NCBI RefSeq assembly: GCF_010672525.1
Contig: NZ_JAAHGH010000007.1
Location: 44,691-108,690, forward strand
From: Okeania sp. SIO2B3
GTDB taxonomy: Bacteria > Cyanobacteriota > Cyanobacteriia > Cyanobacteriales > Microcoleaceae
DNA: 64,000 nt
Reading direction: 5' to 3'
Under the pieces are notes generated by a model. That model saw only the letters and a program-made list of their open reading frames with translations. It was not told the DNA's origin and did no database searches. This document shows positions 26,502 through 32,154 of this stretch, piece by piece (position 1 is the first letter of the stretch; each line of letters begins with the position of its first letter). The position numbers and the translations under genes were made by a program.

Positions 26502-27314
26502 TTATTCTTCCTTCTTCCCTCTTCCTTCTTCCTTCTTGATACAAAAATTACTAATCCAACCTCGCTGTACAAATAATGGAAGTAATGAACCAACATCAAC
26601 TTTAAGCTCCAGATCGGCGACTTTTTCACAAACAATTTCAAATGGATAATTCTCTTGAAAAATCTTTAGTAATTCCCATTCTTCATTGTTTGGTAAATCA
26701 ATTCGCATATCATAACCCTGTCGCCACAAAAATATTTTTACTCCACCTTCATCTAGACTTACCATTTTATCCCCTTGATAATCAGGTTGATTTACTTGCC
26801 AAATCCTATGAATAGGATAAATAGACTCTAATAAAACACTATTTTTCGGTAAATACAAAATCAACTCTCCCCATTTTTCTTGAGGAACTTCACCCAAAGC
26901 TTGAAAATCTAAACCCTTTGTATCTTCACCACAAAAAACTCGATGCCAATGCCATTCTAAACGGGCAATATCTGGCAGATATGGTAAATGTTTTACTGGT
27001 TCAAAATCTGCCAGGAAATCTGCAAACTCCTCTCCATAATCTCCTAAATCAGGTGATAAACAAGGAAATTGATTAATAAACTTTAATGCAGTTGCTTCAA
27101 AAAATTTTTCTCCCACTAACTGACATAACACAGGATAAATTGACATTAATGTATTACTCAAATTCCCAACAACATTACCCCTGTAAATTGCCAAACCTTC
27201 CGCAGGTGTTAAATTATTTGGTGCCTTAATATGTTTACTTAATTCTTCTATACTAATACTGTCTTTTTCCCAAACAGCTTGGAGAAATAAATTTTGTAGA
27301 GTAATATTTTCCAT
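26502..27314 (-). CDS. bufC: BufC-like DUF2063 protein, partner of the DUF692 enzyme
   Basis: The 270-residue protein has the DUF2063 (HvfC/BufC N-terminal) pattern at about residues 5-95: LQNLFLQAV, AEGLAIYRGNVVGNLSNTL, YPVLCQLVGEKFF. A C-terminal domain follows, with WHWHRVFCGED, probably the substrate-delivery part. In bufferin loci, BufC is thought to bring the precursor to the DUF692 enzyme. I chose the ATG at 27314 (MENITLQ); the frame extends 17 codons upstream through unrelated AT-rich DNA. The last residues, KKEEGRGKKEE, are coded by GAAGGAA-type heptamers rather than family sequence, so the C-terminus has been extended or rewritten. It lies co-directionally 607 bases after bufB. Confidence 0.82.
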   Translation of the reverse strand: MENITLQNLFLQAVWEKDSISIEELSKHIKAPNNLTPAEGLAIYRGNVVGNLSNTLMSIYPVLCQLVGEKFFEATALKFINQFPCLSPDLGDYGEEFADFLADFEPVKHLPYLPDIARLEWHWHRVFCGEDTKGLDFQALGEVPQEKWGELILYLPKNSVLLESIYPIHRIWQVNQPDYQGDKMVSLDEGGVKIFLWRQGYDMRIDLPNNEEWELLKIFQENYPFEIVCEKVADLELKVDVGSLLPLFVQRGWISNFCIKKEEGRGKKEE

Positions 27315-27921
27315 TATCAAATAATTAATAATTAAATAATTCAGATTAAAAGCCTCCCCTTTCAAGGGGAAAAAATTAACGCGTGTCAGAAGTCAGAAGT
27401 TAACCTACCCCTAACCCAACCCCGCCCCTCTATGCTTTATAAACATCTTTCTTAACATAAAACTTGACAAAAATATCATTTAATGAATTAGAGTCTGAAA
27501 GCTCCTAGTGTCGTTGCGATCGCAACGACAAAAAACAACTTTTAGGAGTACACAAGTTAGTCAATTTGTCAAAGCTTGTAAAACCAACAAAATGCTCTTC
27601 ATTAATTGATAATTGATAATTGATAATGGATAATTACCTCTGGTTAAAACCGTTCTTGATTGAACATAAGGAAATATTATTTCTTTATTTTCCCCTTGTA
27701 GAGCGACAGCTCGCGGCGCAGCCAAGGGGAGGCAGAGTAAGCTTACCTAATAATTAATAATGATTAATTATTAATTATTAGGTAAGCTTTTGATAATAAG
27801 CATTATCCACTTTTGTAAATAATTTTGCTTATAATGGATAGCTTTTAGGGAAAGGTAATTATCCATTATTCATTATTCATTATCCATTATTCATTATTCA
27901 TTATTCATTATTCATTATTCA
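27315..27921. repeat. bufB-bufC spacer: palindromes and CATTATT heptamers
   Basis: GTCGTTGCGATCGCAACGAC at 27510-27529 is a perfect 20-base palindrome around a GCGATCGC core, inside wider CTCCTA/TAGGAG arms. A TATGCTTTATAAACATC block at 27430 also occurs at 49863. Positions 27739-27789 form a long AT-rich palindrome, AAGCTTACCTAATAATT to AATTATTAGGTAAGCTT. Positions 27860-27938 are CATTATT/CATTATC heptamers running up to the bufB stop. Such insertions explain why bufB and bufC are far apart here. Confidence 0.6.
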
Positions 27922-28839
27922 TTATCCATTATCCATTAATGAACTGACCTTTTGCAACAATTTTTCAGCTTTATTTGCTTCTGCCATTAACACTTCAAAA
28001 CTCGGAATATCTGTATCCCATTCTATTAAAGTAGGTATACTGCCAAATCTGACTAAAGCTTCTTCATACAACTCCCAAACTGGAGGATGAACTGGATAAC
28101 CGTGAGTATCTAATAGATAATTTTCCTTTTCTTCATAACCTGCTAAATGAATTTGTTTAACCCTTGTTGGTGGAATACTATCCAGATATTTTAGAGGGTC
28201 AATTCCATTATTTATAGCATTAACATAAAGATTATTTATATCCAGAAGTAAGTAACAGTCAGCTTTTTTTACTAATCCCTCAATAAACTCCCATTCCGAC
28301 ATAGTTGAATCTGTAAAAGTTAAATATGGGGAAGGATTTTCAATTAAAATTTCCCTACCTAAAAACTCTTGTACTTGCAGAATACGGGATGCCACAAAAT
28401 CCATCACCTTTTCTGTATAAACAAGCGGAATTAAATCGTTAAGATAGTGACCCTTAACAGATATCCAAGATAAATGATCGGATATTAGAGCAGGTTCAAC
28501 TTTTGCTGCTAAATTTTTTAAGCGAGTTAAATAATCTAAATTTAATGGGTCTGTTGAACCCAAAGACATTCCTACTCCATGTAAAGTAACAGGATAATCT
28601 TGACGAATTTTTTCTAAATTAAATAGTGGCAAACCACCAGCACAAAAATAGTTATCTGATAAAACTTCAAACCAATTTACTTTCGGTTTTTCAGTCAGAA
28701 TATATTGATAATGGAGCGAACGTAAGGCAATTCCTGAACCTTGAATTGATGATGACTGAATGTAGGGTAAATCTCCCTTACTTTGCCACTTTGGATTAAC
28801 ATCAAATTCTAGTTTTTGAGATTCTATTTTGGTTGTCAT
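27922..28839 (-). CDS. bufB: BufB-like DUF692/MNIO peptide-modifying iron enzyme
   Basis: This 305-residue protein is a DUF692 (MNIO) TIM-barrel enzyme. The family oxidises cysteines or amides in ribosomal peptides using a multinuclear iron site. Likely metal ligands in conserved blocks are Glu58 (WFEVLSDNY), His87 (TLHGVGMSLGS), Asp121/His122 (ISDHLSW), Glu167 (IENPSPY), Asp200 (LDINNLYVN), His231 (IHLAGY), Asp244/His246 (DTHGYP) and Glu273 (IEWD). The His expected in HLAGH of many DUF692 proteins is Tyr here. I chose the ATG at 28839 (MTTKIESQ); the frame continues upstream only through Phe/Ser-rich codons made by CTTCTTCC repeats. Lying between bufA and bufC on the same strand, it is the probable modifier of the bufferin precursor. 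Confidence 0.88.
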   Translation of the reverse strand: MTTKIESQKLEFDVNPKWQSKGDLPYIQSSSIQGSGIALRSLHYQYILTEKPKVNWFEVLSDNYFCAGGLPLFNLEKIRQDYPVTLHGVGMSLGSTDPLNLDYLTRLKNLAAKVEPALISDHLSWISVKGHYLNDLIPLVYTEKVMDFVASRILQVQEFLGREILIENPSPYLTFTDSTMSEWEFIEGLVKKADCYLLLDINNLYVNAINNGIDPLKYLDSIPPTRVKQIHLAGYEEKENYLLDTHGYPVHPPVWELYEEALVRFGSIPTLIEWDTDIPSFEVLMAEANKAEKLLQKVSSLMDNG

Positions 28840-29486
28840 AAACTGTTTTTTATGAAGAAGAAAGAAGGAAGAAGGAAGAAGAAAAAACCGAATAACTGGA
28901 AAAGTAGATTTGGTCGAAAAGTTGTCTCTACACATCTACAAACCCCAATTGAGTGGATATTATATTTGTAAAAACACTTTTTTTCTATTCCTTATTATAC
29001 CAATTCCCATGCATTAGTGCTATACTTGCGCAATACTTCAGTTATCAACTAATTAGCAGAAACAGAATCATTTTTTTGCTAATCTTAGCTAATTTAATAT
29101 TCATTATTATTATGTTTTTTTCTCCCTGTACGGACACCCTTATGCAACGTCCCTACCCACTCCCCTATTTCCCCTCCTGGGAGGGGGAGGGGCTAGGGGT
29201 AGGTCCCCTGCTCAACAAAATGTAGAAAAGTTTTTGAGAAATGGTATTACCTATTCCCTATTCCCTAAAAGCAATAAATTTTTGGCTTTATTCACGCATT
29301 GAGATGTACCCATAAAAAAATATGGCATTCTTGAATTTTTATGTGATTTGATTCAACAGAGATAAATAGAGGAAAAGGTATCTATCTATAGAAAATTTTC
29401 CTCTGCTATACTCTATGAATCAAATCATGACTCTATTCAAAGATGCCACAAATTTTGTTATAATCACTGAAAATTTTAGTTGATAT
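28840..29486. mobile_element. bufA-bufB spacer carrying a 251-bp element (28997-29247)
   Basis: The element begins ATACCAATTCCCATGCATTA and ends GAGAAATGGTAT, a short imperfect inverted repeat. A sister copy in the opposite orientation is at 36721-36964, sharing CTCCCTGTACGGAC, the CCCCTCCTGGGAGGGG motif and GACCC/GGGTCC blocks. A partial copy is at 26130-26247. The remaining bases, 29250-29486, are AT-rich with no recognised gene. The element separates the precursor gene from its modifying enzyme. Confidence 0.6.
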
Positions 29487-29771
29487 CTATTTAGATTCTG
29501 GAACATAAATTCTTGCACCAACAATTTTCTCGCAAGTACCCTCAGCAACATAAATCCACTCATTAGGATCTGAATCTTTTGCAGCCTTACCTGCACAGTC
29601 ATGGCCATTAGCACCACAATCATTCATACCTTTTTTCACAATACCAGCACATTTTTCCATACCTTCTTTGCCAGCAAGAGCTTCCTGACTATTACCAAAA
29701 GTAGTAAGACCAACAGCTAAGACACCAGTTATTGCACTAGCTACAACTAACTTTTTGTTGATGTTTTTCAT
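29487..29771 (-). CDS. bufA1: Bufferin-type RiPP precursor (DUF2282 family)
   Basis: The 94-residue protein has a signal peptide (KK at 6-7, hydrophobic core 9-24, ALA before Gly34) and a core with four cysteines at 41, 52, 59 and 80 in [19 protein letters not shown] and EGTCEKI. This is the DUF2282 pattern, now known as bufferin precursors, in which a DUF692 enzyme turns core cysteines into copper-binding thiooxazoles. It would be exported and would sequester copper outside the cytoplasm. The ATG at 29771 is preceded by a GGAGAA ribosome site. bufB and bufC follow on the same strand, which supports the call. No BufD-like DoxX protein is seen here. Function in this organism is inferred. Confidence 0.87.
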
Positions 29772-30247
29772 AATATTATTTTCTCCAATTAATTTAGTTC
29801 AACCTTACACTTATAAAGTATTTAGTATCGATATTAAGATAGTCTATGAAAAATCTGAGATTCACCTGAGAAAGTGGTAAAGAGTTAGTGAGTATTTTTT
29901 GCACTAAGGTCTGGTCATTCCTACAGAACTTCAGAACTTAGTTAAACCCTATTCCTCATCAGATAAAATTTGCTTAATTGATAAATAATTATTAGGTAAT
30001 TTATTCTGATTTCTCCTCTACCTTCTATTCAACGACTATTCAAAAGAATGAAATTTTAGATGCTTGTTTTCAGTTAATCAAGTTGATGATATTAATTTAA
30101 CTAATAAAACGAAGGTTTTCCTCAGCAGTTATATTTATGGAAATTCTATTTCATTAATTTATACCAAAAAAGATGGCAGTCATAACATAAGTACAAAACT
30201 ATTAAATAATTTGTGACAACTGATAACTGAAATGACTATCCTAGCTT
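29772..30247. other. Region upstream of bufA; nothing firmly recognised
   Basis: The bases just upstream of 29771 should hold the bufA promoter on the minus strand, but no clear boxes or copper-responsive operator were identified. Around 30080-30215 an open stretch in one plus-strand frame (QVDDINLTNKTKVFLSSYIYG...) lacks a start and may be a gene relic of unknown identity. AACTGATAACTGAAATGAC at 30219 is the end of a dispersed repeat found also at 26355. Confidence 0.35.
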
Positions 30248-31576
30248 CTACTTCTTAGCATGGATATAATCAACAAAGTAAAATTGAGGAATTAACCACA
30301 ATTTTAACCAACCATAAATTCCTATTCCTAAAACTGCTGTAATTACTAAAGGCAAACCTATTTTGATTCGCAAATTATCTGGAAAAATAGCTACTCCAGA
30401 CACAATAATTATGAAATAAGTTAGAAGTAAAATTTGTAATCTTTGTAGATTTTTCAATGCCTGCCGACAACTACTACAATGCTGAGTATGTTGTTGATAA
30501 CGATCCAATAAGAAGGCATGATTATTATTTATTAGATAACTATTGGAATCACTAATTCCGACTTCACTCCAAGGTAATTTACCATCACAATACTTATCAA
30601 ACCAACTCCTAAATTGAATCACTAAACGGTCTGCACTTGTAGGTAACTTATAAGCTGTTTTCCAACTTTCACTTAGTTGCCTTTTTTGCAGTAAATGCTC
30701 TTGCTGGTTTAGTAGAATCATATCTCCATCTATAAGCAAATTTCGAGTTTTAATATGATCCCACCAACGGGGTTTAAACCTGTGAAGTGTTTTGCCAAAA
30801 TTCCTAGCAGATTGAGCAATAATTCTAGATTTACCAGGAGATACTGGTATACAATAAGTAACAAGTGCCACTTTCTTACCACTATCACCAATAGTAGTTG
30901 CATATTCTAACCTACAAGGAGGTTCAAAAGTAATTTTTGTGAAGCCTTTTGAAATAGAAACTTCAACTAAATTAATTGTAGATTGCAGAATCTCCATAGG
31001 TATAGGTCTTGCTTTATCTCTACTACCCAGTACACCATGATGAGCAAAAGGAGCATGACTAGGATCTGCTAAATTTTCGACTAAAATTTCCCAACCATAT
31101 TCCAGATCGCGGACATAAGAAGACCACACAAAACCTTTTTCAGCATCTATTTGTGGTGACAATGGTAGGGGTGTAGTAGCAGCTAGGTCTGCTGTTTTCG
31201 CATCAGGCCAAACCCAGAGTAAATCCTTTTCCTGACGCACTGGTAACGCAGTTACACAGAAATTTTGTTGATTTTTTGCTATAATTTGCTGATTTTCAGC
31301 TTGGGGAATATGAGTACAAATTCCTTGAGCATCAAATTGCCAACCATGATAACTACACATTAAATTACCAGTTTTCTCATCAACACGACCTTCACTTAAT
31401 GGTGCTAAACGGTGAGGACATGAATCTAAAAATACCTGGTAATTCTCAGAATATCTTGGCTTCCAGATGACTAGACGTATTCCCAGCAGAGTTACCGGAA
31501 CAGGTATTTCTGGATCGAGGTCTTCAATGGGAGAAAGAGGATACCAGTGCTGAAAAAAATTAAATTCGGTTTGCAT
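30248..31576 (-). CDS. Rieske [2Fe-2S] oxygenase, pheophorbide a oxygenase/Tic55-like
   Basis: The 442-residue protein carries a Rieske domain with ligands Cys53, His55, Cys74 and His77 (CPHRLAPLSEGRV, CSYHGWQF). A catalytic domain follows with the mononuclear iron motif ENLADPSHAPFAHHG (about 167-181). Near 367-370 is a CSSC pair, and two C-terminal membrane helices (about 383-400 and 405-425) complete the layout. Rieske plus PAO-type catalytic domain, CxxC and C-terminal membrane anchor is the arrangement of chlorophyll-related oxygenases PaO, Tic55 and PTC52. The substrate here is not known; chlorophyll or pheophorbide derivatives are possible. It is probably membrane-bound in thylakoid or plasma membrane. 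It appears monocistronic. Confidence 0.88.
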   Translation of the reverse strand: MQTEFNFFQHWYPLSPIEDLDPEIPVPVTLLGIRLVIWKPRYSENYQVFLDSCPHRLAPLSEGRVDEKTGNLMCSYHGWQFDAQGICTHIPQAENQQIIAKNQQNFCVTALPVRQEKDLLWVWPDAKTADLAATTPLPLSPQIDAEKGFVWSSYVRDLEYGWEILVENLADPSHAPFAHHGVLGSRDKARPIPMEILQSTINLVEVSISKGFTKITFEPPCRLEYATTIGDSGKKVALVTYCIPVSPGKSRIIAQSARNFGKTLHRFKPRWWDHIKTRNLLIDGDMILLNQQEHLLQKRQLSESWKTAYKLPTSADRLVIQFRSWFDKYCDGKLPWSEVGISDSNSYLINNNHAFLLDRYQQHTQHCSSCRQALKNLQRLQILLLTYFIIIVSGVAIFPDNLRIKIGLPLVITAVLGIGIYGWLKLWLIPQFYFVDYIHAKK

Positions 31577-31797
31577 TTTATTTTAGGTAGTAGTTTTTAG
31601 GTCAATTTGTCTCATCTATACCAATTTACTGTAAGGATGTCACAAATAGTCAGCAACTGATGATGTGGAATCATAGGCTGAAATTATTGTAAGCGTCAAT
31701 ACTTTAAGTCTATCAAATTTCACTTCGCCCATTCTGACTTCCATGAAATCATGTTTTTAGAGAGCTTAACGACTTTAACGAGTTAATTTTTATTACT

Positions 31798-32154
31798 TTA
31801 CAAAGACGAGGACTCATCACATTTTACATTCATATGCTTGGCACCCCAATCTCTCATAGAAATCATAATTGGCTCCAGAGTACGACCATAATTTGTCAGG
31901 GAATATTCTACTCGTGGCGGCACTTCAGCATAGACTTTTCGCGCGACAATATTATCTTTTTCCAATTCGCGTAATTGATTAACAAGCATACGCTGCGTAA
32001 CGCCTTGAATTTTTTTCTTCAATTCGCCCAAGCGTAAAACATCATTCTGCAAGAGATTAAAAATAATAACAGGTTTCCACCGCCCACCAATCACCGATAA
32101 AGTGGCTTCGACAGAACACCCATAGGGATGATCGTAATTATTTTTCTGCGTCAT
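31798..32154 (-). CDS. HxlR family winged-helix transcription regulator
   Basis: The 118-residue protein is a single HxlR domain: YGCSVEATLSVIGGRWKPVI, then the recognition region GELKKKIQGVTQRMLVNQLR, the wing EVPPRVEYSLT, and the dimerising end LEPIMISMRDWG. Cys13, just before the first helix, is at the position used for electrophile or oxidant sensing in redox-active HxlR proteins. It is transcribed away from the crotonase gene at 32730 and heads the redox cassette on the other strand, so it probably controls that cassette in response to quinones, aldehydes or similar stress. The regulatory link is inference from position. Confidence 0.9.
   Translation of the reverse strand: MTQKNNYDHPYGCSVEATLSVIGGRWKPVIIFNLLQNDVLRLGELKKKIQGVTQRMLVNQLRELEKDNIVARKVYAEVPPRVEYSLTNYGRTLEPIMISMRDWGAKHMNVKCDESSSL

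Follow-up and report, generated by a model that had tools for sequence, protein, structure and literature searches.

A Buf1-type bufferin locus with a conserved upstream box in the cyanobacterium Okeania

The bufABC locus of Okeania sp. SIO2B3

A stretch of 64,000 nucleotides from the cyanobacterium Okeania sp. SIO2B3 (contig NZ_JAAHGH010000007.1; hereafter the window, in whose numbering positions are given) carries three genes of a bufferin system, bufA, bufB and bufC. The source genome comprises 10.0 Mb in 249 contigs. The genes lie within 26502-29771, all on the minus strand and in the order A-B-C. The first, bufA (29487-29771), encodes a 94-residue precursor of the DUF2282 (Buf1) family. 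It is followed by bufB (27922-28839), encoding an MNIO enzyme of 305 residues, and by bufC (26502-27314), encoding a 270-residue partner protein of the DUF2063 plus RRE type. The start given for bufB is the one common to its relatives, its longest open reading frame (ORF) reaching 28935; that of bufC reaches 27365. A first-pass annotation, made from the letters alone, had proposed a precursor, a DUF692-type MNIO and a DUF2063 protein in this stretch, and the ORFs were found as placed.

Profile searches assign each protein to its family. The precursor, which had been called DUF2282-like and put forward for such a search, matches DUF2282 (PF10048) at 76.3 bits against a cut-off of 22.4 (E 1.7e-21). 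BufB matches MbnB_TglH_ChrH (PF05114; 352.5 bits, cut-off 25, E 1.7e-105) and BufC matches DUF2063 (PF09836; 78.6 bits, cut-off 27.2, E 4.3e-22). Since all three proteins score above the Pfam gathering scores, these are not chance matches. Further, BufB reaches 368.2 bits with the NCBIfam bufferin maturase model MNIO_BufB (NF050167; cut-off 310) and stays below the cut-offs of the HvfB, ApyH, MbnB and ChrH models. Buf1 systems, as described in PMC12452194, have a DUF2282 precursor with four cysteines and a Sec signal, the gene order A-B-C and a DUF2063-RRE partner. With BufA in DUF2282, BufB above the maturase cut-off and a BufC model that resembles MNIO partners, this is therefore a genuine Buf1 locus: its kind is known, but the host is unusual and a conserved element of putative control function, newly recognised, precedes it. 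The bufA-bufB-bufC arrangement first suggested for these genes thus finds support in the family matches, the four cysteines, the gene order and the fold of BufC.

The precursor and its putative maturation proteins

Comparisons draw on loci cited by L numbers, among them the best 80 of 356 relatives from a scan of 84,980 species' genomes. Judged by eye rather than by a prediction program, BufA opens with a signal-like sequence (a Lys-containing N-terminus, a hydrophobic stretch and ALA-G); the putative signal peptide, cut after ALA, would span residues 1 to about 33 (29673-29771, minus strand). The cysteines at 41, 52, 59 and 80 and the EGTCEKI motif (residues 77-83) are present as the first-pass annotation had read them. 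Across 26 chosen BufA rows, E39, K40, C41, G43, K46, N50, D51, C52, C59, G61, G78, C80, K82 and I83 are invariant. The core EKCxGIxKxGxNDCxxxxHxCxG...GTC is common to BufA and proteobacterial precursors. Of 83 precursor rows, three depart from the four-cysteine core: L042 and, in their called form, L075 and the truncated L089. According to PMC12452194, modification in Buf1 falls on the central cysteines, and a disulphide joins the outer pair. A PDB search with BufA gave a single match, at E 0.1, which covers the signal region; the predicted BufA structure is confident in the middle and of low confidence at both termini.

BufB matches the PDB entry 3bww at E 4e-48. Its catalytic residues are conserved: H87, H122, E167, N203, H231, D244, H246 and E273 each occur in 79-80 of 80 Buf1-type BufBs and, among the phylum's other MNIOs, in 24-25 of 25. 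By the DxH motif, D244 and H246 match D242 and H244 of HvfB, itself outside the alignment; PMC13419390 reports these two and N175 as essential in HvfB. The Tyr of HLAGY had been singled out as replacing the His of HLAGH. The Tyr is there, but a special status for it is not supported: it is the commonest state, the residue after HLAG being Tyr in 42, Phe in 28 and His in 10 of 80 aligned Buf1-type enzymes. Given this spread, the Tyr does not signal a changed active site. An odd active site was consequently rejected, with Tyr or Phe in 70 of 80 enzymes and HVAGY or HIAGF at the same position in solved MbnB chains.

The AlphaFold model of BufC has a mean predicted local distance difference test score of 90.6. 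Compared over its whole length with the PDB, it matches at E <= 0.001 only the partner chain of 8hi7 and 8hci (TglHI) and NGO1945 (3dee). PMC12452194 classes NGO1945 as a typical partner of the DUF2063-RRE kind and pairs TglI with the MNIO TglH; the predicted fold of BufC is that of TglI and NGO1945. Its sequence profile found nothing in the PDB at E 0.001, and single-sequence matches, which were to TAL-effector repeats via a short motif only, were disregarded.

A conserved box upstream of bufA

Aligned upstream regions show one conserved block within poorly alignable DNA. This box is a direct repeat with an 11-bp period, TCTCAG-N5-TCTCAG-N5-TCAwAG, and in the window it occupies 29833-29871 on the minus strand, between 100 and 62 bp upstream of the start of bufA. 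From 29871 down to 29833 it reads TCTCAGGTGAA TCTCAGATTTT TCATAGACTAT CTTAAT, that is, TCTCAG-N5-TCTCAG-N5-TCATAG-N5-CTTAAT. Scoring covered the 300 bp before bufA (about 120 in L048 and 230 in L052) and counted mismatches at 12 fixed positions, those of the first two half-sites. Of 28 cyanobacterial loci (31 upstream regions), 14 had at most one mismatch, 2 had two and 12 had at least three. Relative to the script-assigned bufA start, the 14 sites stand 91-163 bp upstream. Carriers include Okeania, Oscillatoria SIO1A7, Moorena, Symploca SIO2C1, a Trichodesmium metagenome-assembled genome (MAG), Paraprochloron SP5 and an uncultured Microcoleaceae, near relatives among them not being independent. 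Among 50 non-cyanobacterial bufA loci, one (L098, at -297) has a box at this level, L089 being too short to score.

In 449,604 bases, searched on both strands, from 28 cyanobacterial loci without the window, 14 sites had at most one mismatch: 13 before bufA on its strand and 1 elsewhere. A scan of the window alone gave three sites at up to two mismatches, 4.6 being expected; as this is no richer than chance, the case for the box rests on its conservation. With all three half-sites and up to three mismatches, five genomes of the genus gave 36 matches against 12 in the control, and the sole box without a mismatch in each of the five is that of bufA. Four further genomes place their best site at bufA in two cases. 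The third half-site is too divergent for the longer pattern in Oscillatoria SIO1A7 and absent in Paraprochloron SP5, which has no three-half-site match.

OmpR/PhoB-family regulators bind direct half-sites one helical turn (11 bp) apart. Tandem half-sites at this distance, before a gene, are what the box offers, and this geometry points to a putative operator for a response regulator of the OmpR/PhoB type. Searching for further copies of the box did not reveal the regulator, though it gave one weak lead. Two half-sites at one mismatch gave 18 matches in the source genome and 15 for a reversed-pattern control. Ten other box-like sites viewed by eye, eight of them from the three-half-site scan and two from the two-half-site scan, included six inside ORFs and none seen before a response-regulator gene. 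At L130 (L196:1776-3509), also in the source genome, a one-mismatch two-half-site box, TTATCAGGGTTTTCTCAG, stands about 30-50 bp before a sensor-kinase gene (HisKA); among the closed ORFs in the 7 kb of L196 around this kinase, no response regulator was found. This site may lead to the regulator, or may be chance, since the control gives a near-equal match count. A literature search for TTCTCAG with response regulators found nothing related.

Spacers and neighbouring genes

The locus is loosely packed, a feature on which the first-pass annotation was silent: 647 bp separate bufA from bufB (28840-29486) and 607 bp separate bufB from bufC (27315-27921). The second spacer holds tandem ATTATTC-type repeats and a perfect palindrome (27739-27789) with 23-bp arms and a 5-nucleotide loop, of which no second copy was found in the window at up to three mismatches. 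Spacing was compared from gene end to shared motif in the loci where that motif was found, as it was not in many of the more distant ones. Across the six loci that belong to the genus or are titled Okeania, 489-817 bases separate bufA from the bufB motif; between bufB and the bufC motif lie 295-623 bases in five of the six and 27 in L044. Compact relatives such as L057, L060 and L068 show 93-111 (A-B) and 6-15 (B-C) bases. Wide spacers also occur in L047 and L071 (before bufB) and in L051 (after bufB). The wide gaps read as spacer growth rather than a different system. A sigma-70-like match (10 of 12 positions) at 28987-28959, before bufB, was discounted; such matches number 28 in the region and 17.9 in shuffled sequence.

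Scanning the window for Rfam families and tRNAs gave no match, nor did a PHROGs search. Upstream, at 30248-32154, lie a gene resembling Rieske-type pheophorbide a oxygenases and an HxlR-type regulator gene, in which a link to copper was not seen. PMC12452194 describes DoxX (BufD) as frequent and counts it to the Buf1 core, yet does not make it a condition of membership, and reports sigma-factor and NrsF genes in Buf1 clusters. As had been noted from the sequence, BufD does not stand beside this locus: Pfam found no DoxX among 12 of the 13 non-buf ORFs in window positions 20-40 kb, and two DoxX matches lie elsewhere in the source genome. Sigma-factor and NrsF genes were likewise found neither among these 12 ORFs nor among ten neighbours from seven related loci, five of those ten matching no family. 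In Okeania SIO3I5 (L044:5900-10883), FeoA and FeoB genes follow the buf locus and bufC is partly duplicated; in an Acaryochloris MAG (L060:5864-6932), an ArsR-type regulator gene and a cation-efflux gene lie 2.4-3.5 kb past bufC.

Distribution and origin

Buf1 as a general cyanobacterial trait was rejected: DUF2282 occurs in 2 of 386 sampled genomes of the phylum, namely the source genome and G360, whose BufB is 71% identical. MNIOs of any kind occur in 28 of the 386, two of these under the cut-off, and 26 of the 28 have no DUF2282 match. The source genome has one MNIO and one DUF2282 match. BufB is present in all five sampled genomes of the genus, source included, at 93-100% identity. Among named relatives, the closest BufB is that of Okeania sp. 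SIO2C9 (96%), followed by those of O. hirsuta (95%) and of Okeania SIO3B5 (94%). Contamination was rejected on this occurrence and on a downstream M48-peptidase gene common to the window and L039.

Cyanobacteria, many of them MAGs, account for 27 of the best 80 of 356 relatives and include Okeania, Trichodesmium, Symploca, Moorena, Oscillatoria, Prochloraceae, Acaryochloris, Synechococcus, Cyanobium and Cyanothece. Of these 27, 26 yielded bufA (all but L050) and 26 yielded bufC, whole or in pieces (all but L055); both exceptions fall at contig ends. Literature searches found no cyanobacterial DUF2282 or bufferin loci in print, the term 'bufferin' being swamped by 'buffering'. The string 'cyanobacter' is absent from the main text of PMC12452194, whose taxonomic figures and supplements may already count cyanobacterial Buf1.

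Several related loci differ in architecture. Moorena bouillonii PNG (L053:4992-6881) has a natural MNIO-DUF2063 fusion, a 629-residue frame with Pfam matches at 12-273 and 376-471 and a linker of about 100 residues. A Prochloraceae MAG (L056:2383-6762) has a DoxX gene, three consecutive bufA copies, bufB and bufC, and the copy tested holds two DUF2282 stretches. In seven Burkholderia or Paraburkholderia loci (L082, L084, L091, L096, L100, L105, L106), a DUF2282 gene lies about 2 kb downstream of bufC and none was detected just before bufB, contrary to the published strict A-B-C order; an undetected upstream precursor is possible. A different MNIO gene, with HLAGP, is preceded in G382 (L006:2353-3684) by a 443-residue cysteine-containing ORF that ends just before it, possibly a large MNIO substrate of another kind.

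A BufB tree of 82 rows was built without L077 (broken), L089 and L099. Removing 24 further rows (3 distant MNIOs and 21 proteobacterial) gave a 58-row tree, in which L053 and L097 were cut to 310 residues, L097 so losing part of BufB. Here the window falls in all-cyanobacterial starred sets of 5, 8 and 11 rows. A starred set of 40 combines 28 cyanobacterial rows with 2 from Thiotrichaceae (L057 and Thiomargarita L059) and 10 proteobacterial, mostly gammaproteobacterial, rows; its surround is wholly proteobacterial save one Nitrospinota row, so that the cyanobacterial BufBs nest among those of proteobacteria. Cyanobacteria and Thiotrichaceae form one side of a weakly supported branch (73/70), and a single clade of the 28 cyanobacterial rows is neither shown nor rejected (approximately unbiased test, p-AU 0.474). 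In a quick 57-row tree without L097, the window's sets of 5, 8 and 11 persist, and cyanobacteria with Thiotrichaceae once more stand apart. The sampling leans to close kin because the rows are best matches to two cyanobacterial queries. We infer that the bufferin genes were gained from proteobacteria in one or a few transfers, the direction not being proved, with perhaps one transfer back to Thiotrichaceae. The Thiotrichaceae BufBs found among the cyanobacterial ones (L057 and L059, including Thiomargarita nelsonii) reflect either transfer or a misbinned contig.

Proposed function

We hold it very probable that this Buf1-type locus yields a thiooxazole-bearing, copper-binding periplasmic product, whose most likely function would be periplasmic copper buffering. 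BufA would be made with a Sec signal. In the cytoplasm, the iron oxidase BufB, with BufC presenting the substrate through DUF2063 and RRE, would oxidise C52 and C59 to thiooxazoles. Sec would export the modified BufA, C41 and C80 would pair as a disulphide, and periplasmic BufA would bind excess copper. The chemistry, export and copper binding are proposed by analogy with the Caulobacter bufferin, as cited in PMC12452194 and PMC13097082. In favour of this view are the family scores, the core motif held in common with proteobacterial precursors, D244 and H246 as counterparts of essential HvfB residues, the fold of BufC, low ratios of non-synonymous to synonymous substitution in bufB and bufC, the occurrence of BufB throughout the sampled genus and the box before bufA.

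Several observations weigh against this view. By the NG86 method, rough for such short genes, the ratio of non-synonymous to synonymous substitution rates (dN/dS) of bufA is 0.18-0.65 across five genus loci (window, L037, L039, L040, L041) and 0.18-0.83 with L044 and L046 added, so that bufA evolves faster than bufB and bufC. In Microcoleaceae MO_207 (L042:2557-4777), BufA lacks Cys1 and Cys3 and carries an internal repeat, and bufC is split; in a Trichodesmium MAG (L077), bufB and bufC are in pieces. MAG errors are possible in both. The BufA of L075, as called, has three cysteines. The 12 of 28 loci without the box include all seven of the Acaryochloris/Synechococcus/Cyanobium clade. Further, no regulator gene was found: of 14 response-regulator loci, none carries a box (up to two mismatches) within 350 bp upstream of an ORF of at least 170 residues. 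The source genome has 74 receiver-domain matches, so most lie outside those 14.

The same chemistry could serve another main job, such as handling another soft metal or thiol or oxidative stress, with copper binding incidental. Bufferin domains fused to MerC (PMC12452194) and the induction of such pathways by gold and oxidative stress (PMC13097082) would suit this, as would the ArsR-type and cation-efflux genes in Acaryochloris. So would the surroundings of 14 loci and the window, where only the bufABC families recur save the M48 gene (window and L039) and two chance-like pairs. However, the Okeania BufA core motif is unchanged and the published Buf1 work concerns copper, and we judge such a job improbable. 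Cyanobacteria need copper and open water is copper-poor, so that the product might instead be a chalkophore that supplies copper to cytochrome oxidase or plastocyanin. Methanobactins, a further class of MNIO products, do scavenge copper (PMC12452194), but beside the 14 loci and the window no family of transporters or receptors recurs, not all neighbours having been run against Pfam. Transporter genes near single loci comprise an ABC ATPase (L051), cation efflux (L060), a small multidrug type (L067) and FeoB (L044). Acquisition seems decidedly improbable. Long spacers, the repeat-filled B-C spacer and broken copies in kin (L042, L077) could mean that a laterally gained operon survives only as a relic, unexpressed and in decay, but low dN/dS in the five genus loci (bufB 0.10-0.26, bufC 0.09-0.24) and the occurrence of both BufB and a box at zero mismatches in five of five genus genomes leave this the least probable reading.

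Copper defences described in cyanobacteria (CopMRS, CopBAC) come, in the sources available, from Synechocystis. CopM-type DUF305 is found in none of five genus genomes, in 9 of 12 sampled family genomes (source counted) and in 100 of 386 across the phylum. Both DUF2282-bearing sample genomes lack DUF305, an outcome to be expected by chance in roughly half of cases. The absence is only suggestive because the phylum rate is just 100 of 386. Tentatively, and with appreciable doubt, we speculate that a bufferin system of proteobacterial origin entered marine filamentous cyanobacteria (Okeania, Moorena, Symploca and Trichodesmium kin) and there came under a two-component regulator dedicated to it, with an operator nearly private to bufA. 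The thiooxazole copper buffer would there do the periplasmic job of CopM (DUF305) in other cyanobacteria. The bufferin kit is already known, is rare in cyanobacteria and was probably acquired from other bacteria. A copper-buffering ribosomally synthesised and post-translationally modified peptide in these genera, with a shared control element, would offer a testable handle on their copper tolerance and on bufferin control outside proteobacteria.

Comparison with known systems

The closest counterpart is Buf1 itself, the Caulobacter vibrioides bufferin 1, with which the Okeania locus shares the precursor domain, four cysteines, a signal-like start, the order A-B-C and an MNIO with a DUF2063-RRE partner. 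It differs in its wide gaps, in the direct-repeat box before bufA and in having no adjoining DoxX, sigma-factor or NrsF gene among the neighbours scanned. The Buf_EGKCG/oxazolin (HvfABC) systems have a related MNIO and partner, but the Okeania precursor has no EGKCG repeats, and the HvfB and HvfC models score 240 and 54 bits against cut-offs of 360 and 142. Bufferin family 2 likewise has a secreted MNIO substrate, but BufA2 carries 6 or 12 cysteines; its model gives 18.9 bits against a cut-off of 60, and the Okeania BufA has four cysteines, not six. Finally, the ChrH-type MNIOs described in PMC12636315 also occur in cyanobacteria, but their precursors are reported there to end in CPACGMG, and the ChrH model scores 46.9 bits against a cut-off of 600.

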